Positions 16,288 through 36,973 of a stretch of 64,000 nt of DNA are shown piece by piece; within the stretch, counting starts at the first letter, position 1; every line of letters starts with the position of its first letter. Below the pieces are notes generated by a model. The model searched no databases and was not told the origin of the DNA. It saw only the letters and a program-made list of their open reading frames with translations. Made by a program: the position numbers and the translations under genes. Source of the stretch: Colwellia sp. Arc7-635. GTDB lineage: Bacteria > Pseudomonadota > Gammaproteobacteria > Enterobacterales > Alteromonadaceae. Location: assembly GCF_003971255.1 (NCBI RefSeq), contig NZ_CP034660.1, positions 806,001 through 870,000 on the forward strand. Direction: 5' to 3'.

Positions 16288-16519
16288 CTACAAGCTTTTT
16301 AGTCCTTTAGTACGACTAAGTATTAACCGAAATAATGGTCAGTTTTTTTATATGTTCAGGCAGGGCGCTATATTGCGATGATTTTTATGTCAAAGCATGA
16401 GGAGCTTTATGCTTTTAACCGTGCAGCAGGTTAAAAATAATTCTTGCTATTTCGTCCTAGCTGTCGATAATCGCGCCATTATTTAAATAATGTCATATTC
16501 AATTTTACTTACTTTTATG

Positions 16520-16710
16520 CTTTAAGGCATCACTGATAATGTAAAACTGGGAATGTGGTGAAAGTCCACAACTGTACCCGCAACTGTAAACAGAGAGATA
16601 TAGCGCTAAGCTTTTATTAAAGCTTAAATTGGCAATATCTAACGACTGTAAGTCAGGATACCAGGGGAAATATGAGCATTAATGACCACGTCGAGCGGGT
16701 TACTCGAACA
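16520..16710 (+). ncRNA. Cobalamin riboswitch 1 (upstream of cobT operon)
   Basis: The conserved core is present in order: GGGAATGTGGTGAAAGTCCA, then ACTGTACCCGCAACTGTAA, then the B12-box AAGTCAGGATACCAGGGGAA (about 16651-16670). Downstream, the hairpin CGAGCGGGTTACTCG (16692-16706) carries a loop complementary to the CCCGC of the core (16577-16581), i.e. the L5-L13 kissing loop expected for this class. A candidate intrinsic terminator follows (16740-16762). It should repress cobT-cobS-cobU-cobQ when adenosylcobalamin is abundant. Confidence 0.93.
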
Positions 16711-17966: not shown

Positions 17967-18849
17967 ACTTGATGATCAACAAGTTGAGGCTGCTAGGCGA
18001 GAGCTCAAGCAAAAGTCATGGCCAGCACTGTTGGCAGAGCAGTGGCAATTATTGTTATTGGCAACCAGTTTTTTTACCCGAATTCCGGTCGGTATTAGTG
18101 CTGAAGTCAGCGGTAAAATGTTAAATGAGGCAAGTCGATATTTCGCTTTAGTCGGTGTATTTATTGGTGTTGGCTCAGCGTTAGCTTTTTATCTTGCCGC
18201 CAGTATTATGCCGGTAGAACTTGCTTTATTAATTGCCATGGCGACCAGTGTGCTTTTAACCGGTGCTTTTCATGAAGATGGTTGGGCCGATGTTTGGGAT
18301 GGTTTTGGTGGCGGTTGGACCGTTGAGAAAAAACTTAACATTATGAAGGATAGTCGTTTAGGGACTTACGGCGCGGCGGCATTATTTTTTATCTTAATGA
18401 TCAAATATCAAGCGTTGTTAGCACTTATTCAGCAAAATATAACCCATACGGCTTTGTTAAACGAAAGCATGCTAAGCGAGAGCTTGAGCGTGTTGTCGAT
18501 ACTCGTTTTAGGCCATGGTTTAAGCCGAGTGCTGGCAACCAGTTTAATTGCTGATATGCCTTATGTCAGTGAAGATGCAACTTCAAAAGTAAAACCCCTA
18601 GCGCAAACATTATCGACTAACAGCTATTTAACTTTGCTGACCACTGCTGCGCTGATACTGCTATTTAGTTTGTCTTTTAGTGTTATATGGAAACTTGTGC
18701 TGGTTTTATTACTGACCCGTTGGTGCTTAAAGCGTTGGTTCACGAAACAATTAGGCGGCTATACCGGTGATTGTTTAGGAGCAGCGCAACAGCTTTCAGA
18801 AGTGGTTATTTACATTTCATTGTTGGCATTTTCAGCCGTGAGCGTATGA
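17956..18849 (+). CDS. cobS: Adenosylcobinamide-GDP ribazoletransferase CobS
   Basis: 297 residues; joins alpha-ribazole(-phosphate) to adenosylcobinamide-GDP, the last assembly step, at the inner membrane. Seen: TSFFTRIPVGI, the signature FHEDGWADVWDGFGGG (from about residue 105), MKDSRLGTYGA, and about six hydrophobic helices. The ATG at 17956 is chosen because GAGGT lies just upstream, inside the end of cobT; earlier in-frame starts exist. The N-terminal ~30 residues extend beyond the ~250-residue enterobacterial enzyme. It ends in a 17-bp direct duplication that includes its stop codon. Confidence 0.93.
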   Translation: MSPKLDDQQVEAARRELKQKSWPALLAEQWQLLLLATSFFTRIPVGISAEVSGKMLNEASRYFALVGVFIGVGSALAFYLAASIMPVELALLIAMATSVLLTGAFHEDGWADVWDGFGGGWTVEKKLNIMKDSRLGTYGAAALFFILMIKYQALLALIQQNITHTALLNESMLSESLSVLSILVLGHGLSRVLATSLIADMPYVSEDATSKVKPLAQTLSTNSYLTLLTTAALILLFSLSFSVIWKLVLVLLLTRWCLKRWFTKQLGGYTGDCLGAAQQLSEVVIYISLLAFSAVSV

Positions 18850-18873
18850 ATAAAGTGAGCGTATGAATAAAGT
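18840..18873 (+). repeat. 17-bp direct tandem duplication at the cobS-cobU junction
   Basis: GAGCGTATGAATAAAGT occurs twice without a gap. The first copy holds the cobS stop (TGA within GTATGA). Each copy carries ATGAATAAA, the same nine bases that begin cobU at 18895, so there are three such starts in a row, of which only the last is followed by the long frame. Confidence 0.9.
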
Positions 18874-18894
18874 AAGCGATGGGACTGAGCAAAT

Positions 18895-19584
18895 ATGAAT
18901 AAAATACAGTTAATTATTGGCGGCGCTCGTTCAGGCAAGAGCTCGTTGGCAGAGCAATATGCTAAGGCGTCAAACCTACCGGTAACTTATATCGCTACCG
19001 CACAAGCATTTGACGTGGAAATGGCGCAAAGGATCAGCCTGCATCAAGCTGACCGACCACAACATTGGGCTTTGATAGAGTCACCTTTATTACTGGCACA
19101 AGCTATTGAGTCAGCAATGGCGTCCTCGAGCAATGGCGAAGGTATTTGCCTACTAGTCGATTGTCTAACTTTGTGGTTGAGCAATAGTTTGTGTAAGCCA
19201 AGTGATGTCTTAGCGGACGACTGCCTTCAGACAGACACTCAGTCGGGCACTGATACAGACACTCAGCCAGAAAATTATGCAGTCAACCTTGATTGTTGGC
19301 AACAAGAAAAAACGCAATTACTTGCGTTACTCGCCCGTATTTCCCAACAAGCATGTCACGACAATAACAATAACGAGGTCGGGCGTATTGAAATTATATT
19401 GGTGAGTAACGAGGTCGGTCACGGCATAGTGCCGATGGGAGAGTTATCTCGACAATTCGTTGATCAAGCGGGCTGGTTGCATCAAGCCATTGCTAGCATT
19501 GCTGATAATGTTGAATTCGTTATGGCAGGCTTACCGTTAACATTAAAATCAGCTGAAAAAACTAACAACAAGGTTCAATTGTGA
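18895..19584 (+). CDS. cobU: Adenosylcobinamide kinase / adenosylcobinamide-phosphate guanylyltransferase CobU
   Basis: 229 residues. It phosphorylates adenosylcobinamide and transfers GMP from GTP to it. Seen: P-loop GGARSGKS (residues 9-16), [12 protein letters not shown], and the C-terminal [19 protein letters not shown] then DQAGWLHQ. Compared with the ~180-residue family norm it has an insertion of about 35 residues after WLSN, rich in Asp, Thr and Gln and encoded by imperfect short repeats (CAGACACTCAG-like). The insertion is probably a surface loop. It is third in the operon, and its last bases overlap cobQ by GTGA. Confidence 0.93.
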
Positions 19585-21074
19585 AAACATTAATGGTGCA
19601 AGGCACTACCTCTGATGCAGGAAAAAGCACCTTAGTTGCGGGCTTATGCCGCGTATTAGTGAATGCCGGTATTAACGTCGCGCCATTCAAACCGCAAAAT
19701 ATGGCGCTAAATAGCGCGGTCACTAAAGATGGTGGCGAAATTGGTCGCGCTCAAGCCTTGCAAGCGATTGCGGCAAAGGTTGAAGCACGAGTTGATTTTA
19801 ATCCTATTTTGTTAAAACCTAATAGTGACACTGGCGCGCAAGTTATTGTCCATGGTAAAGCAATATCCAACATGGAAGCCGGCAAATATCACGACTACAA
19901 AAAAGTGGCAATGCAAGCGGTGTTAGAATCGCATCACCGTTTAGCTAATGATCACGACGTACTGCTCGTTGAAGGAGCAGGTAGTCCCGCTGAAATTAAT
20001 CTTCGCGCCCATGATCTTGCCAATATGGGATATGCCGAAGCCGTCGATTGCCCGGTTATTATAGTGGCTGATATTGATCGTGGCGGTGTATTTGCTCACT
20101 TAGTTGGCACATTGGCGCTACTCTCTGAGTCAGAGCAAGCAAGAGTGAAAGGTTTTATTATCAATCGTTTTCGCGGTGATATTAAATTACTTGAATCGGG
20201 CTTAGATTGGCTTGAAGAACGTACAGGTAAGCCGGTATTAGGTGTGCTGCCTTATTTACATGATTTAGCGTTAGACGCAGAAGATGCCGTCGCACTTGAT
20301 AACAAAGTCACGCAAGCGAGGGTGAAAATTTTTGTTCCTCTGCTACCACACATGAGCAACCATACCGATTTTGACCCATTGCGCTTACAGCCTAATATTG
20401 ATTTGCAATACATCCGTATCGGTCAGTCGTTGAAAGGGGCTGATTTAATTATTATTCCAGGCAGTAAAAATGTCACTTCTGATTTAAGCTTTTTAAAGCA
20501 ACAAGGTTGGCAGCAAGAAATAGAGCAACACCTGCGCTATGGCGGCAAAGTTATGGGCATTTGTGGCGGTTATCAAATGTTGGGTAAACAGATATTCGAT
20601 CCTGAACATATTGAATCGCATGTTGATCAAATATCAGGCCTAGGCTTGTTAGATTTCACCACCACGCTAACGCAAAACAAAACACTAAGCCAAGTAACGG
20701 CGAGCATGACGTTAAATGGTGAAACTTGTCAGTTAAAAGGCTATGAAATTCACTGTGGTGTCTCTACTGGTCCAGCGTTAACTCAACCACTACTGCATAT
20801 TGAAAGTGATGGTACGGGCGCAAAGCAGCAGATACCTGATGGTTGTATTTCGGATGACGGACAAATTATCGCTACCTACTTACATGGCTTTTTTGATTGT
20901 CCAGAGCCAAGTGAAATGGTGTTGAATTGGTTAGGTATTAAAGACTTACAAACACCGGTGATTGATATTAATCAACATCGAGAAATTCAACTTGAGCGAT
21001 TGGCGGATGTTTGTAATGAGCATTTGGATATGGACAAAATTCAGCAAATTATTGCTCAGGGTAAAGAAACTTAA
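19581..21074 (+). CDS. cobQ: Cobyric acid synthase CobQ/CbiP
   Basis: 497 residues; ATP- and glutamine-dependent amidation of four carboxylates of adenosylcobyrinic a,c-diamide to cobyric acid. Seen: an N-terminal dethiobiotin-synthetase-like ATPase ([44 protein letters not shown]) and a C-terminal class-I glutaminase-like domain with Cys328 in [10 protein letters not shown] and a His in [10 protein letters not shown]. The start is GTG, overlapping the cobU stop by four bases, which implies coupling. The operon ends at the terminator at 21136-21165. Confidence 0.95.
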
Positions 21075-21195: not shown

Positions 21196-22677
21196 CTATT
21201 CAATAAAAGCAATTGCAGTAGGGTTTAGCTCAGTAGTAAGTCTTGGTAACTCTTTTGTATTTGTTTCAGTGTCTACTATATCAAGCCCTGGATTTTCTGG
21301 ATTACTAATACTCATCCAAAGATAATTTGCCGCATCTAAATTAATATGGCTAATTTGTTCAGTGCCTGTTTCTGCAACTACTTCATCAGCAATAACACCT
21401 GTTGTCGGGTTGAAAGTATAAACCGTTGACAGCTCACGATAAGGTGAGTAAAAAACTTCACCTGCAACAAAGTAGCCTTTAGTCTCTGAAACAATTACGC
21501 TTGAACCAATAAATGCAGCAGTGTTATCTGTTATATCTTCAGCAGTTAGTACTGTTCGTAAGCTGTAATCGCTTGCTGTGATCGCTTCAACACGACTTAA
21601 GGTTAAGTCAGTGCTGCTGTATGAATTGCGAGTGGTGACATAGACAACACCGTCTTTGCTAACAACGCTGTTATTTAATGGGTTTAATCCAGTTAAAGGA
21701 ATACCTTTTACAGTGTCATCTGAGTTAGCGTTAGTTTCAAGTTCTTCGTCAGTTTCAATGTCAAAAACAGCAACATAGGCAGTGTTTGGTGCGTAAGAGT
21801 CAGACAAACGTTGTAAGGCAATAAATAATTTACCGTCGACAATTGTACCTGATGAAGGTCTAGGTGTGTCGTTAGTATTATCGTCTGGTACATACGCTTC
21901 AAGGTTCAATTCACCGGTTTTAAAGTCGTCAGCTGATGTTGCTTGAGGGTTTACAATCCAAACTTTGCTTGAACCGTAACGTAATATATAAGCTTTTGTA
22001 TCACTAACCGAAATGATGTCGTATGGGTTACGAGAACTTGAATCTGCTGTGTCTTGCGTAGTATAAGTCCAAACGGCAGTATCAAGTGCATCTGCATTGT
22101 ACTTGGAAACCGTGTCGATGTTAAAACGTCCAATATGATAAACGTCTTGTTGGTAGCTACGTACAGTGTAGTCAGAACCATCTTTAATGTAATAACCTTT
22201 CGTTACCTGTTGTGTTGCAGGATCTACGGTCACAACTTCTGAGCCTGAGTAGTCAGGTGCAACAGTTTGTACAACGGCAAATGATGGAGTGTCTTTAACA
22301 TCACCAACACTTACTTCAATGGCTAATTCGCCTGTTAAGCTTTTTTTACTGTCGTCGGTTGCTACGATAGTGACAGCGAATGGACCAGTATCACCACTTT
22401 CAAAATCAGGCGCGGTTAAAAAGCTCAACTCACCAGCTTGTGTGATAGTAAATAAGCTGCTTGAAGTACCGCTCAGTGATAATGTAATAGCATCACCATC
22501 GGCATCAGTTGCGTTATAAGTGCTAACAACGGTGGTATTTTCTTCAATAACAGGATTAATTGCACCAGCCACTGATGGGGCATTTTCACTGTCTGAGCTG
22601 CCGCCACAACCTGCAAGTATTGTTGCTCCTAAAGCTAAACTTACTGGCAGTATTTGTTTTTTTAAATTTGTTAACAT
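21196..22677 (-). CDS. Surface-lipoprotein candidate with cadherin-like and propeller-like regions, btuB partner
   Basis: 493 residues. It has a lipoprotein signal with lipobox LAGC (Cys about 24) and a Ser/Gly-rich tether. A cadherin/Ig-like repeat follows (about 45-125: NATDADGDAITLSLSG, then APDFESGDTGPFAVTIVATD). The last ~360 residues are repeated beta-strand blocks (NPYDIISVSDTKAYILRYGS, SGTIVDGKLFIALQRLSD, NSVVSKDGVVYVTTRNS), resembling a YncE/DUF5074-like beta-propeller. The ATG directly abuts the btuB stop (TAAATG), with the GAGGG ribosome-binding site inside the btuB end, so the two are co-translated and both fall under riboswitch 2. In Bacteroides, BtuG is a propeller lipoprotein that caps BtuB and binds B12; an analogous role here is inferred. 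The ligand is not shown by sequence. Confidence 0.75.
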   Translation of the reverse strand: MLTNLKKQILPVSLALGATILAGCGGSSDSENAPSVAGAINPVIEENTTVVSTYNATDADGDAITLSLSGTSSSLFTITQAGELSFLTAPDFESGDTGPFAVTIVATDDSKKSLTGELAIEVSVGDVKDTPSFAVVQTVAPDYSGSEVVTVDPATQQVTKGYYIKDGSDYTVRSYQQDVYHIGRFNIDTVSKYNADALDTAVWTYTTQDTADSSSRNPYDIISVSDTKAYILRYGSSKVWIVNPQATSADDFKTGELNLEAYVPDDNTNDTPRPSSGTIVDGKLFIALQRLSDSYAPNTAYVAVFDIETDEELETNANSDDTVKGIPLTGLNPLNNSVVSKDGVVYVTTRNSYSSTDLTLSRVEAITASDYSLRTVLTAEDITDNTAAFIGSSVIVSETKGYFVAGEVFYSPYRELSTVYTFNPTTGVIADEVVAETGTEQISHINLDAANYLWMSISNPENPGLDIVDTETNTKELPRLTTELNPTAIAFIE

Positions 22678-24675
22678 TTATAATCCCTCGATTGTGTATT
22701 TAATTTGAAAACTGCGACCTTGCGATGTTCTATTCGCTAGATCTTGATATTGGTCATTGAATAGATTGTTGGCACTAAAAGACACGTGATGATTGTCTTG
22801 CTTCCAGTATATGGACAGATCAGACACTGTGCGGTCTGACGGGTTACCATTACCAAAACCGCTAACGTCATTTTGAAATCTGTTAATAAGATTGAAATAT
22901 AACTCTTTGTCTTGACTGGTTTTAAAGGATACTTGCCATGCTTTGTTTACTTGGTATTTTAGCGCAATACTGTATTGTTGATGGTAGATACCCGGTAATT
23001 TATTATTATCAAAAGCGACGAAGTCAGATTCAATTTCACTGTCAATAATGTTCGTTTGTAACGACAAAGATAGCGGTTCAAATAATTGATAGTTAACTTG
23101 AATTTCAAAACCCCGTAAATCTGCATCACTGACATTACTATAGCTGCCAACATTACTTGAGTTGAAAATAGCGACAATAGAATTTTCTAATTTTTGTTGA
23201 TAAATCGAAGATGATATCGACAGCTTCTTATCGGTATATTGCCCACCAACAGACAAGGTTAATGCTTCTTCTGGAAGTAGATCATCATTACCTTTAAAAG
23301 AGCCGCGATCACCAAATAATTCATAGAGTGTAGGAGTTCTTACACCATCACTTAAGTTGGCAGTGATTTTAAAATTTTCTTGTTTGAGGCTAAGGCCTAA
23401 TTCGGTGGTTAAGTAATCTTCATTATCTTGAAATTTTTCGGCATCGGGTTGATTTAATGCCGTGTTCGAGTTTTCCTCTCGTAAATTACTAACGAGTAGA
23501 TAAGCTTCTAAGGGCAAAGATATGGGTTGCCATTCTAAACGAGAACCGACGTTGAATTGCTTTTGCTTGGCTGAAATATCACAAGAGCCAATACCATTAC
23601 ACTGTGTTGGCTGACCATTATGTAGACTCACGGAAGTAAATTCTTGTTTATTGAAACTAACAAAAGGGATCAGGTTGAAGGTGTGCCAAGTGAGCAGAGG
23701 CTTAAAACCTATATGATGCTTTTGGGTTTCATAATCATTGGTATCGAGCTGTATTGAATCAGGGCTCGATATATAGCGCTCATTTTTATCTTCTGTATAC
23801 GCCTCAAACTCTATTGAGTCTAACCAAGATGAATCGCTTAACCATTGATGTTGGTAGCTATAGCGCAAGCTGTCTGAATTTAAGGCTGAGCTATTTTCAG
23901 GGGAGTTATTACGGTAATTTGGTAGCGCTTTTTCTTGATCATTGTATTGTATATTTAATCTGATCTGGTGTTGATCGAACTGAAGAATGTCATTAATGAA
24001 AAAAGTTTTTTTAGTAAATTCATTATTTCTTAATGCTTGTTCGTCGGATTGACTGCTGTCTTCGAAACTTTGCGGTACCAGAAAATCATAATCATTGTCG
24101 CTATTAACATAATTACCACCAAATGACAGGCTATGAACTTTAAAAGCCTTATTGAATAGTAAGTTAGCTTCACGGTAACCAAATGAGCCAGTCGCTAATG
24201 TTAACTTCGCGGCGTCTTGAGTCGGATTATAAGTATTAATACGAATAACACCGCCAATAGGGGTAGAGCCCGTGCCAATGGCTTGGTTTTTACTTATTTC
24301 AATACTTTCAATTTGTTCAGTAGGAATTTGATTTAAATCGAAACCACCAAATTGACTGTCATTAATCAACTGTCCATCAATATATAGCTGTACTTGTTTG
24401 CTACTTGATCCTCGAATTGAGACAGATACAGGGTTACCAATACCGCTTATTTGACGGATTTGAATACCATTAACAGATTGTAAAATGTCGGCGAGTGTTT
24501 GTGATGAGTGAACAAAGCTTTCTCGTTGTAAAACTTGATAGTTTGGTGAGTTAAAACTTTGATCATTAACAACTTCAATGATCTCGATGTCTTCATTCGA
24601 AGCAGGTTCTACTTGTGCAAAAGCGGGCATTGCCACAGGGCAAATTATAGGTAAATATCGTAAACAAGAGAACAT
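22678..24675 (-). CDS. btuB: TonB-dependent cobalamin receptor BtuB
   Basis: 665 residues. Signal peptide (MFSCLRYLPIICPVAMPAFA), a TonB-box-like segment (IEIIEVV), a plug domain (LADILQSVNGIQIRQISGIG, then VSIRGSSSKQVQLYIDGQLI) and a beta-barrel ending in a hydrophobic strand rich in aromatics. It imports corrinoids across the outer membrane using TonB energy. The B12 substrate is assigned from riboswitch 2 directly upstream and the B12 neighbours, and from the BtuB-like plug. ATG at 24675 is chosen over a GTG at 24681 because GAGG lies five bases upstream and gives a clean signal peptide. That GAGG can be hidden in a hairpin (24681-24698). Confidence 0.92.
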   Translation of the reverse strand: MFSCLRYLPIICPVAMPAFAQVEPASNEDIEIIEVVNDQSFNSPNYQVLQRESFVHSSQTLADILQSVNGIQIRQISGIGNPVSVSIRGSSSKQVQLYIDGQLINDSQFGGFDLNQIPTEQIESIEISKNQAIGTGSTPIGGVIRINTYNPTQDAAKLTLATGSFGYREANLLFNKAFKVHSLSFGGNYVNSDNDYDFLVPQSFEDSSQSDEQALRNNEFTKKTFFINDILQFDQHQIRLNIQYNDQEKALPNYRNNSPENSSALNSDSLRYSYQHQWLSDSSWLDSIEFEAYTEDKNERYISSPDSIQLDTNDYETQKHHIGFKPLLTWHTFNLIPFVSFNKQEFTSVSLHNGQPTQCNGIGSCDISAKQKQFNVGSRLEWQPISLPLEAYLLVSNLREENSNTALNQPDAEKFQDNEDYLTTELGLSLKQENFKITANLSDGVRTPTLYELFGDRGSFKGNDDLLPEEALTLSVGGQYTDKKLSISSSIYQQKLENSIVAIFNSSNVGSYSNVSDADLRGFEIQVNYQLFEPLSLSLQTNIIDSEIESDFVAFDNNKLPGIYHQQYSIALKYQVNKAWQVSFKTSQDKELYFNLINRFQNDVSGFGNGNPSDRTVSDLSIYWKQDNHHVSFSANNLFNDQYQDLANRTSQGRSFQIKYTIEGL

Positions 24676-24680
24676 GAACA

Positions 24681-24703
24681 CCTCAAAAAGTTTTGAGGGA
24701 GGT
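24681..24703 (-). promoter_or_regulatory. Hairpin that can sequester the btuB ribosome-binding site
   Basis: On the minus strand CCTCAAAACTTTTTGAGG forms a 7- to 8-bp stem whose 3' arm is the GAGG ribosome-binding site of btuB. A second ACCTC just upstream could pair with GAGGT instead. This suggests riboswitch 2 acts on translation initiation. Confidence 0.65.
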
Positions 24704-24747: not shown

Positions 24748-24905
24748 TTCCGTAGCGCCCACCGCACTGCAAATAATTCTTTCTTGTTTAGGCCGGTCTC
24801 CGGGCTTAACTTTGTAAATAACAAAGTATTACCGTTGCGGGGGCAGCGTCAGAATTATGCATATAGCACTTACTAACTTCCCGATTATCTCTTCATTTTT
24901 ACGTT
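24748..24905 (-). ncRNA. Cobalamin riboswitch 2 (upstream of btuB)
   Basis: Read on the minus strand: GGGAAGTTAGTAAGTGC, then GACGCTGCCCCCGCAACGGTAA (core at 24837-24843), then the B12-box-like AAGCCCGGAGACCGGCC (24791-24807). Downstream GTGCGGTGGGCGC (about 24755-24767) is complementary to GCTGCCCCCGCA of the core with one bulged T, the expected L5-L13 kissing contact. The expression platform is probably the ribosome-binding-site hairpin at 24681-24703. It controls btuB and the lipoprotein gene. Confidence 0.92.
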
Positions 24906-25017
24906 ATTAGCGTATAAATATCGAGCACCTAAGCAATTTTGAGCCGCAATTCTGAACCGATTACTATGGCTTGTCAACCGTTAGGTTATTAAAATCATTT
25001 ACAAAAAAACTGGGCTA

Positions 25018-27754: not shown

Positions 27755-28459
27755 TGCTTAGCGGTAAACCTTTATAGCCACTGAATAGCCATAGAAATCA
27801 TTAATTGGACGAGGAGAATAACGAAATCATTAACTTGATTCAATGCAAATATAATTTCCGTTGGTTTTTATGCTTGTAGAGGTTTGATAAGTCATGTTAT
27901 TGGTTGAATAACCGTCATGCTTGGCGTAATATCAGCGCTGATTTAGGTGTCTTAGTTGTTATTGTTTTAACTCGATAAAACATAGTTAGTAACGATAATT
28001 AGCAAAGATGAAACGTGAAACTGGTGAAATACCAGTACTGCCCCCGCAACGGTAACTGTGAGCAGCAACAAAACCACTGTATTAAATCACTACTTTATTT
28101 AACAAAATAGTGACGATATGGGAAGGTGTTGCAAGTGCGATGAACAGGAGTCCGGAGACCGGCCTATTCAATTTTATTGATAGTAAATATTTAAGCTAAA
28201 GGTTAAGCATTGATTTACGATGCTAGATTTTAGCAATAGATTATATCGATAAGACTCGACAACTGCGGTGGGCGGTGATTCAGAGAACAGTAAGCGGACT
28301 GAATTTTAGCTTTACCATCGTATGATGTTTTATTAGCGTACTTTTATGTATAAATTAGACATAAATCACTCCCAATAAAATTTTACGTAATTAACCCGTT
28401 TACTCACTTTGATTTCCAACACCGTTAACATTACAGATGTTTAAAACAACGGGATCGTT
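27755..28459. other. Divergent control region with riboswitch 3
   Basis: About 700 bp. It must hold the promoter of the minus-strand cobC-cbiB-cobD set and, on the plus strand, riboswitch 3 with its downstream platform. No second aptamer was found on the minus strand. Confidence 0.6.
27990..28285 (+). ncRNA. Cobalamin riboswitch 3 (upstream of the BtuM-like/cobB/cobN-like operon)
   Basis: Core: GAAACTGGTGAAATACCAGT, ACTGCCCCCGCAACGGTAA (CCCCCGC at 28041-28047), a long variable arm, then the B12-box AGGAGTCCGGAGACCGGCC (28147-28165). Downstream CTGCGGTGGGCGGT (28263-28276) is complementary to ACTGCCCCCGCA with a single bulged T, again the L5-L13 contact. Near the next start, CCCGTT (28395-28400) is complementary to AACGGG (28448-28453), which contains the presumed ribosome-binding site, so control may be translational; that last point is tentative. 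Confidence 0.93.
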
Positions 28460-29071
28460 ATGAAATCAGACCAACAAAAATTACCCTTTAACTTGTTTGT
28501 TGCCGTATTGGCAATATTAACCTTGCTGATGCTTGCTACGCGCACCCATCATTTTTCCAGTTTTAACCATTTGCCCAGTGCATCAATCGCTATTTTCTTC
28601 TTAGCTGGGATGTATTTGAGAAATATTAAAGCGTTTTGGTTTTTTTATATTTTGACCCTTACCGTTGACCTTGCTTCATCATACTATCGTGGCCAATTTG
28701 GCGACTGTATCACTACTTCATATCCTGCCTTGGTATTGAGTTATGGCGTTATGTTTACTGTTGGTTATTACACTCGCCCTAACTGGCAGCAAAGTGATTG
28801 GCATGTCAATATTATTAAGGTGGCATTAGCTTTATTGGTTGCTAGTTCAATTGCTTTCTTTATTTCAAATGGTAGCTATTACGTATTATCGGGTAAGTTT
28901 CCTGAGTTGTCTTGGGCTGAATATGGAACCCGGGTTGACAAGTACTTCTTTAAATCTATTTCTAATCCTATTTTCTATGTCACTTCCGCTATGGTTATTG
29001 ATTTTACAATCAACCGTTTCTTTGTTGATAAAGTGATAAATGACAATAACTACGCCAATAATGGTCATTAG
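28460..29071 (+). CDS. BtuM-like membrane protein, candidate solitary corrinoid importer
   Basis: 203 residues with about six hydrophobic helices and short loops, like an ECF-transporter S-component. It contains a single cysteine, Cys83, in QFGDCITTSYPALVL, between helices 2 and 3. In the BtuM family (known from Thiobacillus denitrificans), a conserved cysteine in the corresponding region (Cys80) binds the cobalt of B12 and removes cyanide. The gene is the first behind riboswitch 3 and no btuCD is present, which fits an inner-membrane B12 carrier. Opening LPSASIAIFFLAGMYL is also seen in related DUF6580-type proteins. Family assignment is by architecture and context, not by alignment. Confidence 0.65.
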   Translation: MKSDQQKLPFNLFVAVLAILTLLMLATRTHHFSSFNHLPSASIAIFFLAGMYLRNIKAFWFFYILTLTVDLASSYYRGQFGDCITTSYPALVLSYGVMFTVGYYTRPNWQQSDWHVNIIKVALALLVASSIAFFISNGSYYVLSGKFPELSWAEYGTRVDKYFFKSISNPIFYVTSAMVIDFTINRFFVDKVINDNNYANNGH

Positions 29072-29110: not shown

Positions 29111-30574
29111 ATGACCCTAGCGAATAAAAAAACCTTATCAACACAGAGCAGCAACATTAAGAATAAAGATAAGGCAGTACCACATAAAGCGTTTGAGCAT
29201 AAACCCGAGCAGCAAGTGGGTAGTGGTGTTATGTGTTCAGCATTAATTATTGCTGCGCCGCATTCTGGCTCAGGTAAAACAACGGTGACGGCAGCATTGG
29301 CTCGTTATCACCGAAATCAAGGCCGTAAAGTCACGGTGTTTAAAGTTGGACCTGACTTTATTGACCCGATGATTTTACGCCAAGCCAGTGGTGAATTAGT
29401 TTATCAATTAGATCTCTGGCTCGTTGGAGAGCAGGGCTGCCAAGAATTGCTTTACCGTGCCGCACAAGAATCTGATCTTATTCTGATTGAAGGTGTCATG
29501 GGCTTGTTTGATGGCAACCCGAGTAGTGCAGATTTAGCTGAATACTTTAATATTCCAGTGCTCGGGGTTATTGATGCTAAAGCGATGGCACAAACCTTTG
29601 CTGCGGTTACGTTTGGCCTAGCAAAATTTAGAAAAAACTTACCTTTTTCTGGCGTGATTGCTAATCGTGTTAATAGCGAGCGTCATATCGAGCTGTTAAG
29701 TGAAGGCTTTCCAGAAGAGTTTCGCTTTTATGGTCGGCTACCAAAAGACGAAACTATTACCTTACCCGCACGCCATTTAGGCTTAGTGCTAGCACAAGAA
29801 TTATCTGATATTGATGCACAACTTGATCGAGCTGCAGGTCATATCGCTAATACCGAATTGACAGAGTTACCTGAAAAAGTCGAGTTTTTTGCGAGCAATA
29901 CTGATAGCAATACCGATAGCGAAGAAATCGTTACTGAGCAAGCACTGCTCGGCACGCGTATTGTTATTGTACGAGATAGCGCCTTTAGCTTTATTTACGC
30001 GGCTAATATTGCTTTTTTACAGCAAGCTGGCGCAGAACTAGTGTATTGCTCTGCACTGACTGATGCACACCTACCAGAGGGCGATATTTTATATATTCCT
30101 GGTGGTTATCCTGAACTCTATATTGAACAATTAATGGCGAATGTTACTTTTCTCGATGATGTTAAAGGCTTTGCTGCTAGCAATAAGCCTATTATTGCTG
30201 AGTGTGGCGGTATGATGTATTTACTTGAACAACTTACTGATATGTCAGGGCAAGAATTTTCGATGCTAGGTTTATTGCCTGGTAAGGCGATTATGCAGAA
30301 AAAAGTCGCTGCTATCGGTTCTCAGTGGGTTAATTTAACGGGTTTTGGTAAAGCTGCTAACAACACCGACAACATCATGCGTGGGCATAGCTTTCACTAT
30401 TCTGCTGCTGAAATTGATTTACAGCCTAGCGGCCAAACGACACATCACCCAAGTGAACGAGCAGGTGAATTTGTTTACCAGCATAATAATATTCTTGCTT
30501 CTTACATGCATTGGTATTTACCTAGCAACCCGAGTTTAACGTTACGTATTTTTGATAAAACGCGCTGTTTTTAG
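29111..30574 (+). CDS. cobB: Cobyrinic acid a,c-diamide synthase CobB/CbiA
   Basis: 487 residues; glutamine- and ATP-dependent amidation of the a and c side chains of (hydrogeno)cobyrinic acid. Seen: N-terminal ATPase APHSGSGKTTVTAALARYH, VFKVGPDFIDPMIL, LIEGVMGLFDGNPSSADLAE, and a C-terminal glutaminase-like domain with YIPGGYPELY and the nucleophile Cys in AECGGMMYLLEQL. There is a ~60-residue N-terminal extension rich in charged residues before the ATPase. The substrate is an early intermediate, yet no ring-building genes are near, so the cell either makes the ring elsewhere or salvages cobyrinic acid. Confidence 0.92.
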   Translation: MTLANKKTLSTQSSNIKNKDKAVPHKAFEHKPEQQVGSGVMCSALIIAAPHSGSGKTTVTAALARYHRNQGRKVTVFKVGPDFIDPMILRQASGELVYQLDLWLVGEQGCQELLYRAAQESDLILIEGVMGLFDGNPSSADLAEYFNIPVLGVIDAKAMAQTFAAVTFGLAKFRKNLPFSGVIANRVNSERHIELLSEGFPEEFRFYGRLPKDETITLPARHLGLVLAQELSDIDAQLDRAAGHIANTELTELPEKVEFFASNTDSNTDSEEIVTEQALLGTRIVIVRDSAFSFIYAANIAFLQQAGAELVYCSALTDAHLPEGDILYIPGGYPELYIEQLMANVTFLDDVKGFAASNKPIIAECGGMMYLLEQLTDMSGQEFSMLGLLPGKAIMQKKVAAIGSQWVNLTGFGKAANNTDNIMRGHSFHYSAAEIDLQPSGQTTHHPSERAGEFVYQHNNILASYMHWYLPSNPSLTLRIFDKTRCF

Positions 30575-30618
30575 CGCATGACTAGCACTATAAAGCGTTA
30601 AATTCTTAACGCTTTTTT

Positions 30619-30816
30619 ATGAGACATTTCATGATAAGCAGTATTATTGGCAAACATAACACGGATTTTAGCTCTAGTTTTAGTTCTGATTGTAACTCTG
30701 GTTTTAACTCTGACCTGAGTTCAGAACTTAGTCCAGAGCTTAGTCCCGAGCTCAGCTCGAACCTTAGCGCTAAGTCCTATTCTGGTTCGTACCTTAAATT
30801 ATTGCTCAGGCGCGGT
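30619..30816 (+). repeat. Degenerate Ser-rich short-repeat segment upstream of the CobN-like signal peptide
   Basis: The open frame of the CobN-like gene extends 66 codons upstream of its likely start. This segment is a degenerate 6- to 12-bp repeat (TTTTAGCTCTAG-like, then CTTAGTCCAGAG-like units encoding ELSP/ELSS). It lacks gene-like sequence and would bury the signal peptide, so it is treated as leader DNA rather than protein. Confidence 0.55.
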
Positions 30817-33800
30817 ATGAAAAATCACTATCTTTCAATGTTGCTATGTTTCATCACCTTGATACATAGTTTTACGCTAAGTGCTGCAGAAACTAAAATG
30901 CTAGCGTTTGTTTCAGACCGCTCTGCTGCCAGTATTGTTGCAGGAGCTCACCAGTATCTTGAAACAAAAAAGTTAGGCAAGCAAAACGCTGTCAGCGAGC
31001 CACTATCGAAAAGTAATATTACTATCCGCAGCGTTAGCCAGCTTAATCAACTGACGAATAAGCAAATACAGCAGTTAATTAATCAACACCAAGCCTTAAT
31101 TATTGCCGGTGTGTTTGGTGAATCAGTTGAGCGTTTATTGGCGTTGAATTATCAGCCAAAGCAAACACGCTTAATATTAAATACCGATCGACGCTTAATG
31201 GTGTTACACCACGATGTTCAAGGTGGTCGTGTTGCTGACTTGTCAAAAAAACAGCTCCAGAGTTTAATGTCATCGTTAGACAAAAATGATTATTTACCGG
31301 CACTGAGCGCAAAACAACAAGCGTGGCCAGCGTTTTCTTACTGGTTGCAAGCACGAGCTTATTGGCAAAATAGAGGCAAAGAAAATCTAGGTTATTTGTT
31401 TGCTTGGTTGGAAAAAGTGTCAGTACTTAATACTGATGCCAACGAGAAAAATACAGATAACGATATTTTATTGGCCACAGCGGCGAAAATTTTACCGCTA
31501 CAACCGGTGCGTTTTTATTGGCAAGAACAACTGATCAGTGTTGCTCAGTTAAAAGAAAAGCTAACCGAAAATCAAGATAAGCCGGTGATCTTTATTATTG
31601 ACCATGATACTGGCGATCAACCCGGACAATGGCAATTGCATCAGCAATTATGCCAGCAGCAATGGCGATGTGTTTCAGTACTCGCTGGTTGGGGTAAACC
31701 TAGCGAACAAGCCATAGAAGCGATTCGCACCTTTGAATCAACTCAGCCTTTTGCACTCATTGCCTTACAAGATTTTGTGATTGGTGGCGGTGAAGGTCGT
31801 GAAGCGGTTACAGAAAAATTTAAAACGCTGAACATTCCGATCTTTAAGGGCATTAGAGTGACCGAGCTTAGCGATTTACAATATAAACTGTCGCCAACAG
31901 GATTGCCCAGTGACAGTGTTCATTACCGTGTCGCAATGCCTGAATTGCAAGGGGTCTCTCAACCACATGTGTTAGCGTTGGCTTCTAGTGCGAAGTTAGA
32001 TTTACTAACGGGGGCAAGCTTATCTATTAGCCAAGTGTTAAGTAAAGAAATTGAACGTTTACAAGCACGGGTAAGTGCTTGGCTGACGTTAAAAACACTT
32101 GATAATGCCAAGAAAAAAGTTGCGATTGTTTATTATAATCACCCACCAGGACGACACAACATTGGTGCCGATAATCTCGATGTACAGCAATCGTTGTGGC
32201 AAATATTGTTAAAGCTAAAAGCACAAGGTTATGATCTTGGCCCTGAGGCTGATTTTCCAACGTCAGCTGAACAGTTGTTAGATCTTCTACAGCTAAAAGC
32301 GGTTAATTTACCGCAAGATGCTGGCGCACTGAATAAAATGGCACCTTTAATTAACGCCATGTCAGTCAATGATTATCAAGGTTATTTTGATACTCTGCCG
32401 GAGATTGTTAAAGCAGAAATGATTGAAGGTCCGTTAGGTTACTTGCACGCTAGAGTGAAGTTTTACCTGCTTGAACAGGGCCAAGCGCAATTAAGCGCAT
32501 TATCATCGATTGAGCGCAGCGCCGTGTTGAAAGCATTACTTGAAAATGTTGAAAACACCGCGGTTGATTTACACCATGCCTTAGACGGCATTCGACATAA
32601 AGGTCGTGCTCGCGCTTTAGATTTATTAGCTCAACTTACCCAAGCTTATCGCACATTAATCGCGCGTAAACTTGAGAATAATTCAATGGTCAGTGAGCCG
32701 TCAGCTGCCAGTGAGCAATGGCAAGCCGCCGATGCTTTGAAGCAAGCGTTAATTGCTATGCAAATTGAAGGTATTCGGGGTTGGGGCAAAGTCCCGGGTA
32801 AAACCATGGTTTGGCAAAATGAAATTTTGTTACCCGGTGTGCAATTTGGCAATGTTTTTTTAGGACCACAACCACCAAGAGGCTGGGAGCTTAATGAAGA
32901 GTTATTACATGCCAATATGACGTTTCCACCGCCGCATCAATATTTAGCCTTTTATTACCATTTACGAGACGTATTTAAAGCCAACGCGATTGTTCATTTA
33001 GGGCGACATTCTACTTATGAATTTTTACCCAAACGTGCGGTTGGTTTATCTGCTAGCGATTACCCTTCACTGATCATCGAAAATATTCCGAGCATTTATC
33101 CTTATATTGTTGACGGTGTAGGTGAAGGTATTCAAGCGAAACGTCGTGGTGTTGCAGTGATGTTAGATCACTTAACACCACCGTTAGCAACAACTGAGCT
33201 ATATGATGGCTTGTTGCAATTACGACAATTAATTGAAAGTGCAGAAGCTGCATCGAATCAAGATACCAAGAAAAAGGCCATTAAAGCCCTGCGACACAAA
33301 ATTGAAGTATTGCACTTAACCGATGAATTAGTGGCCAGTATGGATGAAGAGTTACAAGTGCGAGGCATCGGCTTTGGTGAGGTTGACGATGACTTTTTAT
33401 TACATGAAGTAGGCCATTATCTGACTAAGCTACAAGAAGATTTTATGCCGTTAGGTTTGCATGTTTATGGGAAAGATTGGCAACAAGATGCAATTAAAAC
33501 CATGATGATCTCGATTGAAAAAGGCGATTTGGACTTTGACGATGTGCAACGAGAGCAAATTAAAAGCAATCTTATTAAGTCACCAAAAAGTGAAATGGCT
33601 GCATTTATAAATGCGCTCAATGGTGGTTTTGTCGCACCGGGTAAAGGTAATGATCCTATAAGATCTCCTGATGCTTTGCCAACGGGTCGTAACTTTTATG
33701 CACTTGATGGTAGCTTAATTCCTTCTCAACTTGGTTTTGCAACCGGAGAGCAATTGGCCCATAAAGCCAGAGAGAAAAGTCCTGTTGTTGATAAAAATCA

Positions 33801-35421
33801 TAAGGAGGCTGTGATTTTATGGGCCTCAGATGCGGTGCGCGATGAAGGGGCGATGATCGCTTTTGGTATGGACATGCTCGGTGTGAAACCTGTGTGGAAT
33901 CGCCGCGGCATTTTAAAGTCTTTAAAGCTTGTCCCACTTGATGATGAACGTACTGAGCGTCGTGATATTGTTTTTACAACGTCAGGTTTATTTCGAGATT
34001 TATATGCTCAGCAGTTAGCTTGGCTCGATCGCTCTGTGTTACTCGCGCTGGCGGCCAGTAAAAATATAATAGAACGCGATCATCCGGCATTAATTAGTGC
34101 ATTAAATGCTGCATTAGAGCCCGTTGAACATATGTTTGAGCAACAAAAACATGATTTTAATGAAAGCCTTGCTAGTAATATGGTGGCCAGTAATTGGTTA
34201 CGTGAAGCGCAAATGTTATTGCGAGCAAATGCCAGCATAAGCCCTAAGTTATTGGGACGACAAGCGAGTTATCGTATTTTTGGCACAGCGCCAGGGGCCT
34301 ATGGTGCGGGCATTAACCGTTTAGCTGAACGCTCAGGTGCTTGGCAAGAGCGTAAAGAATTAGGTGAAGCTTATATCAAACGTATGAGTCATGCCTATGG
34401 CGTGCCTAATGCTGATGTTGAAATGGGCAGTAACGTGCAAGCGTTGTTTCGCCAGCAACTCGCCCATGTTAATAACACTTATTTAGGGCGAGCTAGTAAT
34501 CTTTATGGCTTAATTGATAACAACGACGCCTACGATTATCTTGGTGGTTTAAATTTAGCGATAGAGACGATTACGGGCGAACAGCCAGACAGTTTTGTTA
34601 TTTCGCATGCCAATAGCCAGCAGTTGTCAATTGACCCACTACAAACAGCGTTATTGTCTGAACTGCGTGGGCGTTTTCTTAATCGTCAATGGATTGAGCC
34701 GTTAATGAAACAAGGCTACGCAGGGGCAAGAACAATGGGCAGTGAGTTTATTGAAAACTTATGGGGCTGGCAGGCGACTAGCCCAGAGATTATTCGCTCG
34801 TGGGTTTGGCAAGATTTAAAAGCGATTTATATCGATGACAGCTTAGATATTGGTTTAGATGAATTTTTACAAGCAAAGCATAATGTGCACGTACAAAGTA
34901 ATATTTTAGCGGTAATGCTGGTGGCAATCGAAAAAGGCTTTTGGCAAGCAGACCAACAAACTCAACAAGCGTTGGCTGAAAAGTTTGCACAAAATATTGT
35001 CGAAAACGGTATTCCAGGTAGCGGCCATACTCATGCTAATCATCCTATCTACGACTTTATTAAACCTATGTTATCAGCGCAGCTTAACCGTCAGTTGGCT
35101 GAAGTATTGGCTGCAGCAAATCACACACCTGTTGGTGAAGTTGCCTCAGGCGTTCAGCATATTCAAGAAATAAGTACCGATATTGAACAACAAAATGATC
35201 AGGCTTTAAAAGAACGTTCATCAGCACTGAAGTCAGAGCCGAAATCAGAAGAAAATAAGGCTGAGGCAGATAAGTCTGAGCAAGATGCAAGTCAAGAAAG
35301 TGCCAATGAGTCATTAGCAGAAAATGAACCCTTATTGCTGGCATTAGTGGTGGCTATTTTACTGCTTGTTTTGGCGGGATATATTCGAGCGCGTCGTCAG
35401 TTACCAAAAGTGGAGTCTTAG
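30817..35421 (+). CDS. CobN/HmuS-like chelatase-type protein, exported and membrane-anchored
   Basis: 1534 residues from the chosen ATG (30817), which follows CAGG and starts a signal peptide (MKNHYLSMLLCFITLIHSF). The body is a CobN/magnesium-chelatase H-type protein: YYNHPPGRHNIGADNLDVQQ, HLGRHSTYEFLPKRAVGLS, GEGIQAKRRGVAVMLDHLTP, and ASYRIFGTAPGAYGAGINRL. After an acidic linker comes one C-terminal helix (LLLALVVAILLLVLAGYI) and a basic tail. So, unlike the cytoplasmic CobN of the aerobic cobaltochelatase, it should face the periplasm. The AAA+ partners are absent. It is followed by an ExbB/TolQ-like and a DUF2149 gene, the same trio as around the CobN-like HmuS of Bacteroidetes haem operons. 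Role inferred: chelation or removal of cobalt, or other corrinoid handling, outside the cytoplasm. Confidence 0.85.
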   Translation: MKNHYLSMLLCFITLIHSFTLSAAETKMLAFVSDRSAASIVAGAHQYLETKKLGKQNAVSEPLSKSNITIRSVSQLNQLTNKQIQQLINQHQALIIAGVFGESVERLLALNYQPKQTRLILNTDRRLMVLHHDVQGGRVADLSKKQLQSLMSSLDKNDYLPALSAKQQAWPAFSYWLQARAYWQNRGKENLGYLFAWLEKVSVLNTDANEKNTDNDILLATAAKILPLQPVRFYWQEQLISVAQLKEKLTENQDKPVIFIIDHDTGDQPGQWQLHQQLCQQQWRCVSVLAGWGKPSEQAIEAIRTFESTQPFALIALQDFVIGGGEGREAVTEKFKTLNIPIFKGIRVTELSDLQYKLSPTGLPSDSVHYRVAMPELQGVSQPHVLALASSAKLDLLTGASLSISQVLSKEIERLQARVSAWLTLKTLDNAKKKVAIVYYNHPPGRHNIGADNLDVQQSLWQILLKLKAQGYDLGPEADFPTSAEQLLDLLQLKAVNLPQDAGALNKMAPLINAMSVNDYQGYFDTLPEIVKAEMIEGPLGYLHARVKFYLLEQGQAQLSALSSIERSAVLKALLENVENTAVDLHHALDGIRHKGRARALDLLAQLTQAYRTLIARKLENNSMVSEPSAASEQWQAADALKQALIAMQIEGIRGWGKVPGKTMVWQNEILLPGVQFGNVFLGPQPPRGWELNEELLHANMTFPPPHQYLAFYYHLRDVFKANAIVHLGRHSTYEFLPKRAVGLSASDYPSLIIENIPSIYPYIVDGVGEGIQAKRRGVAVMLDHLTPPLATTELYDGLLQLRQLIESAEAASNQDTKKKAIKALRHKIEVLHLTDELVASMDEELQVRGIGFGEVDDDFLLHEVGHYLTKLQEDFMPLGLHVYGKDWQQDAIKTMMISIEKGDLDFDDVQREQIKSNLIKSPKSEMAAFINALNGGFVAPGKGNDPIRSPDALPTGRNFYALDGSLIPSQLGFATGEQLAHKAREKSPVVDKNHKEAVILWASDAVRDEGAMIAFGMDMLGVKPVWNRRGILKSLKLVPLDDERTERRDIVFTTSGLFRDLYAQQLAWLDRSVLLALAASKNIIERDHPALISALNAALEPVEHMFEQQKHDFNESLASNMVASNWLREAQMLLRANASISPKLLGRQASYRIFGTAPGAYGAGINRLAERSGAWQERKELGEAYIKRMSHAYGVPNADVEMGSNVQALFRQQLAHVNNTYLGRASNLYGLIDNNDAYDYLGGLNLAIETITGEQPDSFVISHANSQQLSIDPLQTALLSELRGRFLNRQWIEPLMKQGYAGARTMGSEFIENLWGWQATSPEIIRSWVWQDLKAIYIDDSLDIGLDEFLQAKHNVHVQSNILAVMLVAIEKGFWQADQQTQQALAEKFAQNIVENGIPGSGHTHANHPIYDFIKPMLSAQLNRQLAEVLAAANHTPVGEVASGVQHIQEISTDIEQQNDQALKERSSALKSEPKSEENKAEADKSEQDASQESANESLAENEPLLLALVVAILLLVLAGYIRARRQLPKVES

Positions 35422-35422
35422 T

Positions 35423-35929
35423 ATGTTGTATGGTTTTTCGTTAGAATTAATGCACTTGATCACCTCATGGTTGTTGCAACCAGTAGTTTGGGGCTTATTG
35501 TTTTTTACGGCGTTAGCTGTTTATGAATTTGGTTTAGCCATTGGTGAGCGCTTTTCTGTTATTCCCGCGTTAGTGGCTGCAAAGCAAAAACGTCAGTTAA
35601 TTGAACAAGGTAAAAAGCGCATTGAGCGCGCCGATTTTATTACCCGTATTGCGCCAATGCTTGGTTTAATGGGCACTTTGATCCCTTTAGGCCCAGGGTT
35701 ATCAGCACTAGGTTCAGGTGATATTAGTATTTTAACCACCGCAATGACGGTTGCATTTGATACTACTATCATTGGCTTACTCGCTGGTGTGATGGGCTTT
35801 GTGTTGGGAAGAATGCGCAGACGTTGGTATGATAACGCCATGCAACGTTTAGATGATGAAAATAGCACTAACCTAGCTGCGACAACAGTTTTGTCGAATG
35901 ATGAACCGACTTTAATAACAGGTGCTTAA
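35423..35929 (+). CDS. MotA/TolQ/ExbB-family proton-channel protein
   Basis: 168 residues, shorter than ExbB (~240). Helix 1 is at about 12-35. The conserved MotA/TolQ/ExbB block spans about 68-135: FITRIAPMLGLMGTLIPLGP, then ILTTAMTVAFDTTIIGLLAG and a third helix. ATG at 35423 is chosen because TGGAGT lies just upstream and because it starts right after the CobN-like stop. The family couples proton flow to work on a partner across the envelope; here the likely partners are the DUF2149 protein and the CobN-like protein. No exbD or tonB is adjacent. Confidence 0.88.
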   Translation: MLYGFSLELMHLITSWLLQPVVWGLLFFTALAVYEFGLAIGERFSVIPALVAAKQKRQLIEQGKKRIERADFITRIAPMLGLMGTLIPLGPGLSALGSGDISILTTAMTVAFDTTIIGLLAGVMGFVLGRMRRRWYDNAMQRLDDENSTNLAATTVLSNDEPTLITGA

Positions 35930-35932
35930 GCA

Positions 35933-36262
35933 ATGAGCGATGCATGGCGTAGCAGCCAATTTGATAGCCAAGAGCAAGAGCCGTTAGGGCCCTTAGCTAA
36001 TTTGATTGATATTATGTTAGTTTTTGCTTGTGGCTTAATCGCAGCCTTAGTTGCGCTGAGTCCTGAATTAGAACAACATTTTCAGATAAATAAAGCTGAG
36101 AGTGCTGCTCAGGTTCAACCAGTAAACTCAGTCGGTAAAGAGCTGAGTACAGCGCCAGAGGCGTTAAAGAATAAATTGCAAAGCCAAGAAGGCTATCAGT
36201 CGATGGGGCAAGTGTACCGCGATCCAGAAACAGGCAAACTGATCCTGATAAGTAATGAATAA
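35933..36262 (+). CDS. DUF2149 family protein (ExbD-like partner candidate)
   Basis: 109 residues with one membrane helix near the N-terminus (about 20-42: LANLIDIMLVFACGLIAAL), starting with the typical PLGPLANLIDIMLVF, and a C-terminal YRDPETGKLILI motif. The layout of cytoplasmic tip, single helix and periplasmic tail resembles ExbD/TolR, and the helix contains an Asp (ID) where ExbD has its proton-carrying Asp. Only three bases separate it from the ExbB-like gene. DUF2149 genes recur beside CobN-like genes. Function in the trio is inferred. Confidence 0.85.
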   Translation: MSDAWRSSQFDSQEQEPLGPLANLIDIMLVFACGLIAALVALSPELEQHFQINKAESAAQVQPVNSVGKELSTAPEALKNKLQSQEGYQSMGQVYRDPETGKLILISNE

Positions 36263-36343: not shown

Positions 36344-36973
36344 ATGAACGATATTGAACAGCAAGCAGCATTAGCAAAAGCGAAAGAGCAAAAACATATT
36401 GAACGTCAGAAAAAGATTAAAGCCAGTGTTGATGAACGTGTAGCGCAAGCCACAGAAGAGCGTGGCGTACTCGTTGTTATTACTGGCAATGGTAAAGGGA
36501 AAAGTACTTCAGGTTTTGGCACCGTATTACGCGCCATTGGCCACGGTCAAAAAGCCGGTATTGTTCAATTTATCAAAGGCTCGAAATGGGAATGTGGTGA
36601 AATGAATATTTTAAAGCAATTTCCTATTCAACATCACGTTATGGGGACAGGTTTTACTTGGGAAACCCAAAGTACTGAAACTGATATAGCGGCCGCCAAA
36701 GTAGCATGGCAAAAAAGTAAAGAAATGTTGAGCGATGAAAGTCTTGATATCGTGTTACTGGATGAAATGACTTACATGGTTAAATACGGCTACATTGAAT
36801 TAGATGAAATTATTGAAGTGTTGAACAATCGCCCTAAGATGCAACATGTATTGATCACAGGCCGAGCCTGTCATCGCAGATTAATTGAGTTGGCTGATAC
36901 TGTGTCTGAAGTTCAACCCATTAAACATGCCTTTAAAGCCGGCGTAAAAGCGCAAAAAGGCCTTGATTGGTAG
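36344..36973 (+). CDS. cobO: Cob(I)yrinic acid a,c-diamide adenosyltransferase CobO/BtuR
   Basis: 209 residues; attaches the 5'-deoxyadenosyl group to cob(I)alamin or its precursors. Seen: P-loop VVITGNGKGKSTSGFGTVLR, GIVQFIKGSKWECGE, VLLDEMTYMVKYGYI, and the C-terminal VQPIKHAFKAGVKAQKGLDW. The N-terminal ~35 residues are a charged helix typical of the family. An AGAGAGAAG ribosome-binding site precedes the ATG. It is last in the riboswitch-3 group, 81 bases after the DUF2149 gene. Confidence 0.95.
   Translation: MNDIEQQAALAKAKEQKHIERQKKIKASVDERVAQATEERGVLVVITGNGKGKSTSGFGTVLRAIGHGQKAGIVQFIKGSKWECGEMNILKQFPIQHHVMGTGFTWETQSTETDIAAAKVAWQKSKEMLSDESLDIVLLDEMTYMVKYGYIELDEIIEVLNNRPKMQHVLITGRACHRRLIELADTVSEVQPIKHAFKAGVKAQKGLDW

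Follow-up and report, generated by a model that had tools for sequence, protein, structure and literature searches.

Introduction

The closest characterised relative of the system considered here is HmuS, encoded in the heme locus hmuYRSTUV; in the literature found, it is the only exported CobN-like protein for which a reaction has been shown, and its His538 is required for turnover (PMC12583661, available part). In 2003 a "third type" of CobN was put forward (as cited in PMC6460266); the available part of that source uses BtuS type as the family name for a trio of CobN-like, ExbB and DUF2149 proteins and presents the exported third-type proteins as thought to salvage metallotetrapyrroles, the genetically tested members acting on heme. 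The same trio occurs in PA1922-PA1925 of Pseudomonas aeruginosa (TonB receptor, CobN-like protein, ExbB/ExbD-type protein and DUF2149), which belongs to the Zur regulon and is known by expression (PMC4542158 and PMC9431628, available parts). Here we describe a trio of this kind from the marine bacterium Colwellia sp. Arc7-635, found in a stretch of 64,000 nucleotides (nt) of contig NZ_CP034660.1 (positions 806,001 to 870,000; hereafter the window), where it lies in an operon headed by a cobalamin (B12) riboswitch. No function for such a B12-switched version was found in the open-licence PMC literature.

In aerobic B12 synthesis, CobB and CobN act at the level of the (hydrogeno)cobyrinic ring, CobN working with CobST or ChlID in the late-insertion pathway. 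We tentatively interpret the window trio as a membrane-anchored, extracytoplasmic chelatase module of class-I type that serves corrinoid salvage and acts on rings earlier than cobyric acid.

A CobN-like protein that is neither CobN nor HmuS

The initial annotation had described a 1534-residue CobN-type protein with a signal peptide and a C-terminal membrane helix, followed by a MotA/TolQ/ExbB protein and a DUF2149 protein, and all three were recovered by family searches (Table 1), with 1 nt between the CobN-like and ExbB-like genes and 3 nt between the ExbB-like and DUF2149 genes. Hydropathy agrees with the topology proposed for the CobN-like protein, since it gives one N-terminal signal-like stretch (residues 6-24), after which a signal-peptidase-like site can be recognised by eye, and one strong C-terminal helix (residues 1505-1523). 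By crude thresholds, the N-terminal hydrophobic stretch recurs in 73 of 81 relatives and the C-terminal helix in 72 of 81, whereas that helix is found in none of seven cytoplasmic-type CobN proteins of the order, two of which show a hydrophobic stretch of marginal strength around residue 26. These termini support a protein that would be extracytoplasmic and anchored in the membrane, and with three adjacent genes and a CobN-like protein of this build the locus corresponds to the BtuS type.

The absence of AAA+ partners, also claimed at the outset, stands for the ChlI/ChlD type: genome-wide, TIGR02442 reached at most 47 bits in each of six trio genomes, whereas two genomes that carry a cytoplasmic CobN gave 446 and 330 bits; the CobS/CobT-type models (TIGR01650, TIGR01651, PF06213) were not run. 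Together with the export-type termini, this result largely contradicts a cytoplasmic protein served by AAA+ partners.

The relation to HmuS that had been drawn is borne out by sequence, HmuS (9d26) being the best match among solved structures (E 1.6e-110) and also the top hit in Foldseek; the closest fold by VIA is CobN 7c6o. The likeness to HmuS extends to an exported, anchored CobN-like protein, the catalytic His and ExbB-like and DUF2149 partners. The surroundings differ, as the window trio is under a B12 riboswitch and has BtuM-like, CobB and CobO neighbours rather than heme genes; neither HmuY nor HmuR was seen among its window neighbours. The motifs differ as well. In place of the HmuS motif HFG(T/A)HG the window protein reads HLGRHS, where Arg and Ser flank the kept His; in place of LSLDHxxEFMGG, which contains His1209, it has LIDNNDAYDYLGG, with Asp1237 at the His position; and the axial heme ligand His254 (site 1) aligns with Glu326 in a phmmer alignment, whose aligned stretches do not extend to the axial heme ligand Met79 and the Met-rich insertion. 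Asp at the His1209 position is shared by the order's heme-type proteins, the LSLDHxxEFMGG motif being that of Bacteroidota HmuS. With CobN the window protein shares PF02514, the chelatase fold, a basic residue before the catalytic His and the Asp1237 position, but it differs in its predicted export and anchoring and in that most searched hosts lack CbiC, and the NCBIfam cut-offs for CobN equivalogs were not reached (e.g., 610 vs 1619, 521 vs 1248 and 499 vs 822 bits). The window protein is neither CobN nor HmuS.

The subfamily is recognised by the motifs HLGRHST, YYNHPPGRHNIGADN, HExGH, DNNDAYDYLGG and GSGHT. His731, which aligns with HmuS His538, is kept in 82 of 82 B12-type proteins, as are Glu770 and Asp1237. 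The residue that precedes the catalytic His separates the types, being Arg (R730) in all 82 B12-type proteins, Lys in CobN (8/8) and Thr in the heme and zinc types (8/8); Ser732 is likewise invariant (82/82). Position 1236 is Asn in 81 of the 82, while 15 of 16 other members have Asp. The HExGH motif (residues 863-867, window 33403-33417) is present in all 82 B12-type proteins and in none of 16 other aligned members, and it suggests a possible extra, second metal site.

The Colwellia genome (4.74 Mb, one contig) holds a second CobN-like gene about 340 kb from the window trio. Its locus (L005 10921-19424, C1:495920-504423) encodes a TonB receptor, HmuY (PF14064), ExbB, DUF2149 and a CobN/HmuS-like protein, and is thus heme-type; HmuY/HmuS-type heme loci are usually described from Bacteroidota, and this one is proteobacterial. 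The ExbB-like and DUF2149 partners, which also accompany HmuS in Bacteroidota, are seen directly in this locus. Since a separate heme-type trio with HmuY is present and has no B12 riboswitch, the organism's heme system lies elsewhere, and a heme role for the window trio was ruled out. The difference from PA1922-PA1925 lies in zinc control and in that no B12 genes are named there, in the available parts of the two sources. Another locus (L043 4474-11037) has a TonB receptor, CobN-like, ExbB and DUF2149 genes in the same order as PA1922-PA1925 and is possibly a zinc-type flavour of the trio.

The trio tracks with B12 riboswitches

When genome contigs were scanned with six aligned window-type proteins, 265 stretches matched; 237 of these were relatives, and the best 80 were kept for the riboswitch survey; within the order, full-length relatives were found in 5 further genomes among 295 searched. 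A two-box riboswitch pattern missed two of the three window riboswitches, so a covariance model (R1) was built from 11 riboswitches, one from the window, four from genomes of the order (one of these, L036, from the same genome as L061) and six from the 80 surveyed loci, the last six having first been found by Rfam. In 2.04 Mb of reversed sequence a looser pattern had no match. Of the 80 loci, 28 were scanned with Rfam, and the remaining ones were read by R1 alone.

A B12 riboswitch was found on the same strand at most 800 nt upstream in 54 of the 80 loci (51 without L096, L099 and L104, which score 22-25 bits and are unconfirmed by Rfam), 800-3200 nt upstream in 15 and elsewhere in the locus in 8; only 3 loci had none. 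By contrast, no riboswitch turned up in any of 16 control loci, which represent the heme, zinc and cytoplasmic types. The first six loci tested with Rfam all had the riboswitch directly upstream. Six genomes of the order have a window-type trio; the riboswitch lies at or near the locus in five of them (the window, L036, L037, L038 and L039, where the riboswitch just before the CobN-like gene scores 33.5 bits only) and is absent at L040. The clade occurs in records named Gammaproteobacteria, Campylobacterota, Nitrospirota, Nitrospina and Myxococcota, several of them metagenome-assembled. These results show that this trio-type clade is firmly tied to B12 and follows B12 riboswitches rather than heme genes, a connection much stronger than a single window could reveal.

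At the window itself, the statement that the trio is under a B12 riboswitch holds for the operon, which is headed by one (Table 1; 130 bits with R1, whose training set includes it), but the riboswitch does not adjoin the trio: the BtuM-like gene and CobB come first, then a hairpin.

Hosts mostly lack CbiC and carry CobQ

CbiC (PF02570, CbiC/CobH) was taken as the marker of corrin-ring synthesis and searched in 49 named host genomes. It is absent from 44 of these, from five of the six trio genomes of the order and from the Colwellia genome, which on this basis seems unable to build the corrin ring. All 49 named hosts and all 6 hosts of the order carry CobQ, against 9 of 25 other CbiC-less genomes of the order (one genome belongs to both host sets, and the 25 were picked by genome number). 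CobB is found in 39 of the 49 named hosts and in 34 of the 44 that lack CbiC. Within the order, four of five CbiC-less trio hosts have CobB compared with 5 of 259 CbiC-less genomes without the trio (p 3e-6, relatedness ignored), and with 0 of 9 when the comparison is made with CobQ-bearing CbiC-less genomes without the trio, a set that left out genome G029 (p 0.005, relatedness ignored). None of the five genomes with a single heme- or zinc-type trio (G134, G160, G234, G254, G273) has CobB.

The trio thus tracks with CobQ, and often with CobB, in organisms without CbiC, which argues for salvage of early corrin precursors; the annotated role on corrinoids is well supported by this genomic context. 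A biosynthetic chelatase of a complete pathway was ruled out by the absence of CbiC in most named hosts; the Azotobacter locus L125 is accompanied by a separate CobN of 1247 residues at L179.

The ExbB-like and DUF2149 pair

ExbB accompanies the CobN-like gene in 84 of 85 loci and DUF2149 in 83 of 85 (L036 and L061 belong to one genome). In the ExbB-like protein, T85 and T115 are kept in 100% and D113 in 99% of 84 sequences, and D26 of DUF2149, an Asp within the segment NLIDIMLVF, in 100% of 83 sequences. T85 and T115 presumably match the threonines of E. coli ExbB, and we take the membrane Asp26 and its segment to be ExbD-like. Against solved structures the ExbB-like protein gave weak PomA matches alone (E about 0.8). 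The proton-driven machine envisaged in the annotation is plausible from this homology and the conserved channel-type residues, with the reservation that DUF2149 is not an ExbD by profile, an assignment that was ruled out for want of a match.

Proposed role and alternatives

Taking into consideration the control, the hosts and the predicted topology, we propose that a shortage of adenosylcobalamin would switch the operon on through its riboswitch, and that incomplete corrin rings, earlier than cobyric acid, would enter through a TonB-dependent receptor and be bound in the periplasm by the CobN-like protein. ATP is not available outside the cytoplasm; given this, the ExbB threonines and the membrane Asp of DUF2149, we infer that the proton gradient would replace the AAA+ motor, the pair converting it into the conformational work that ATP-driven CobS/CobT or ChlI/ChlD perform in the cytoplasm. 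The reaction would most likely be insertion of cobalt into scavenged hydrogenobyrinate-type rings, or else the metal centre of cobyrinate-type rings would be processed in another way. The ring would then be imported through BtuM (or BtuFCD), amidated by CobB, adenosylated by CobO and completed by CobQ and the nucleotide-loop enzymes, so that the hosts would enter the B12 pathway at the (hydrogeno)cobyrinic ring, with the CobN-type step moved outside the cytoplasm. In its boldest form, the proposal describes an unrecognised branch of the B12 economy: aerobic producers would leak rings that are metal-free or incomplete, and bacteria unable to make the corrin ring would take these up and add the cobalt extracytoplasmically, using a proton-driven chelatase under direct riboswitch control. 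We regard this full scenario as unlikely.

Several observations weigh against the proposed salvage chelatase. CbiC is present in 5 of the 49 named hosts and in genome G023, whose genes are of the anaerobic type (CbiD, CbiE, CbiM and a CbiG-like protein below its cut-off), with which metal-free rings are not expected; that such rings occur in the sea is itself an assumption. Ten of the 44 CbiC-less named hosts have no CobB, and genome G121 has the trio with neither CobB nor a riboswitch at the locus. G029 has CobB, no CbiC and no window-type trio, and counting it in changes the 0 of 9 above to at most 1 of 10 (p about 0.02). In precursor salvagers in general, cbiA/cobB is found in 46% (Shelton et al., PMC6461909, available part). 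HmuS, which among characterised relatives is closest in sequence, acts in the direction of removal, and Asn1236 in place of Asp could weaken metal exchange. None of 29 DUF2149 members matched ExbD (PF02472) up to E 10. A BtuFCD-like importer under its own riboswitch coexists with the trio in the same genome. Finally, in three loci a PepSY_TM-type protein immediately precedes the trio, after the B12 riboswitch (L106 8322-9899, L109 8293-9861 and L121 8319-9836; called by Pfam in L109 and L121 and by similarity to these in L106). The PepSY_TM family includes membrane reductases; the protein is a candidate periplasmic corrinoid reductase, and with such a neighbour redox handling of Co(III) corrinoids would be the better fit. 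Cobalt insertion is our first choice of reaction; because of this neighbour and Asn1236, corrinoid hand-off, with or without reduction, and ligand or redox handling come close behind.

In a hand-off, the CobN-like protein would bind Co-corrinoids in the periplasm and leave the metal unchanged, while the motor would force their release to BtuM/BtuFCD, perhaps with reduction or removal of the upper ligand. We consider this possible, if rather doubtful. The BtuM-like importer and CobO in the operon, the TonB-receptor relatives near 28 of 84 loci, the PepSY_TM-type proteins and the Asn beside the metal site are all consistent with it, yet the invariance of the catalytic His731 and Glu770 goes beyond the needs of a mere carrier, uptake of complete B12 needs no CobQ, which every named host has, and the genome already holds its BtuFCD-like importer. 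Closer to the known activity of HmuS would be an extracytoplasmic de-chelatase whose substrates are tetrapyrroles or corrins and which frees them of cobalt or of a wrong metal (Zn, Cu, Ni, Fe), and the sequence and Foldseek matches to HmuS, together with the trio architecture shared with the heme system of the same genome, point that way. Such a role is improbable: it makes little sense to destroy cobalamin with a system that is switched on at B12 shortage, His1209 and His254 of HmuS are not kept, and the searched heme-type loci have no B12 riboswitch; removal of a wrong metal by the trio is possible.

Least probable by far is an ordinary cytoplasmic cobaltochelatase subunit, misread as exported, with its AAA+ partners encoded elsewhere. 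PF02514 membership and the VIA match to CobN would suit it, as would a partner search that covered the ChlI/ChlD and not the CobS/CobT type; the recurrent terminal hydrophobic segments, of which the C-terminal one is missing from cytoplasmic-type CobN, the lack of a ChlI/ChlD-type partner in all six trio genomes and the lack of CbiC in the Colwellia genome argue against it.

The salvage chelatase remains the reading that we favour, and the trio probably makes scavenged B12 precursors usable. What the analysis separates is a B12-switched clade with its own motifs, in hosts mostly without CbiC, with CobQ and often with CobB. Even should the reaction be another than the one proposed, the name "cobaltochelatase subunit CobN" is probably wrong for genes of this clade that carry it, and CobN or CobB alone is unsuited as a marker of B12 producers. 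If correct, the proposal would add a step of corrin-precursor salvage to marine B12 exchange and would show how a proton-driven motor could replace the ATPase on a chelatase.

Operon anatomy and neighbouring B12 genes

The features of the region are collected in Table 1.

Table 1. Features of the B12 region, in window coordinates
Feature	Position	Strand	Evidence
Cobalamin riboswitch heading the operon	27970..28181	+	Rfam RF00174, 82.4 bits (gathering cut-off 31.5), model 1-189 of 189
BtuM-like solitary B12 S-component, 203 residues, Cys83	28460..29071	+	Homologue profile and AF2 fold match
CobB	29111..30574	+	NF002204, 432 bits (cut-off 254)
Hairpin then U-run between cobB and cobN-like gene	30592..30615	+	Folds at -9.9 kcal/mol
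CobN-like protein, predicted exported and C-terminally anchored, 1534 residues	30817..35421	+	PF02514, E 5e-230
ExbB/TolQ/MotA-like putative proton-channel protein, 168 residues	35423..35929	+	PF01618, E 1e-9
DUF2149 single-helix protein, membrane Asp26	35933..36262	+	PF09919, E 9e-13
CobO/BtuR corrinoid adenosyltransferase	36344..36973	+	PF02572, NF004637
Second cobalamin riboswitch	24774..24947	-	RF00174, 65.6 bits; precedes BtuB-like TonB receptor 22678-24681 and lipoprotein 21196-22677
Third cobalamin riboswitch	16498..16683	+	RF00174, 65.2 bits; precedes nucleotide-loop genes and cobQ 16875-21074

The 203-residue protein has no Pfam or NCBIfam name. A profile of 12 of its homologues matches the cobalamin transporter structure 8c7p (E 1e-27), the top fold matches of its AF2 model (mean pLDDT 68.4) are BtuM 8ovv/8c7p (E about 1e-3, prob 1.00), and Cys83 is kept in 12 of 12 homologues. 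Its fold, conserved Cys and co-localisation with btuR/cobO resemble those described for BtuM (PMC6072759, available part), the difference being that here the gene shares one operon with the trio and CobB. The BtuFCD-like locus of the genome (L159 5371-9248) consists of a B12 riboswitch, an ABC ATPase, a FecCD permease, a second CobO-like gene and a binding protein, and its presence ruled out the trio as a simple BtuFCD replacement.

The hairpin that precedes the cobN-like gene is a possible attenuator or terminator, although the terminator scan gave no entry for it. The cobN-like gene has an alternative in-frame start at 30619, which would give 1600 residues. The start at 30817 has AGGCG, which resembles a ribosome-binding site, and lies immediately 5' of the signal-like stretch; the extension 30619-30816, which encodes a short Ser/Glu/Leu/Pro repeat, is probably untranslated.

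CobQ was identified by NF001989 (681.6 bits) at C1:825584-827053, that is, window 19584-21053, and the other gene names in its nucleotide-loop group come from a reading of the sequence, with no family scan. The BtuB-like receptor matches PF00593/PF07715. The large lipoprotein that follows it (the two together span window 21196-24681, under their own B12 riboswitch) gave weak beta-propeller matches and is possibly a BtuG-like surface capture protein; an assignment as BtuG was rejected, the matches being weak ones to designed propellers alone, with no Pfam family. The B12 region is flanked by a family-3 solute-binding protein (PF00497, 37333-38022) and by an 1871-residue protein (7572-13187) whose sequence resembles that of a hybrid sensor kinase containing a periplasmic binding domain.

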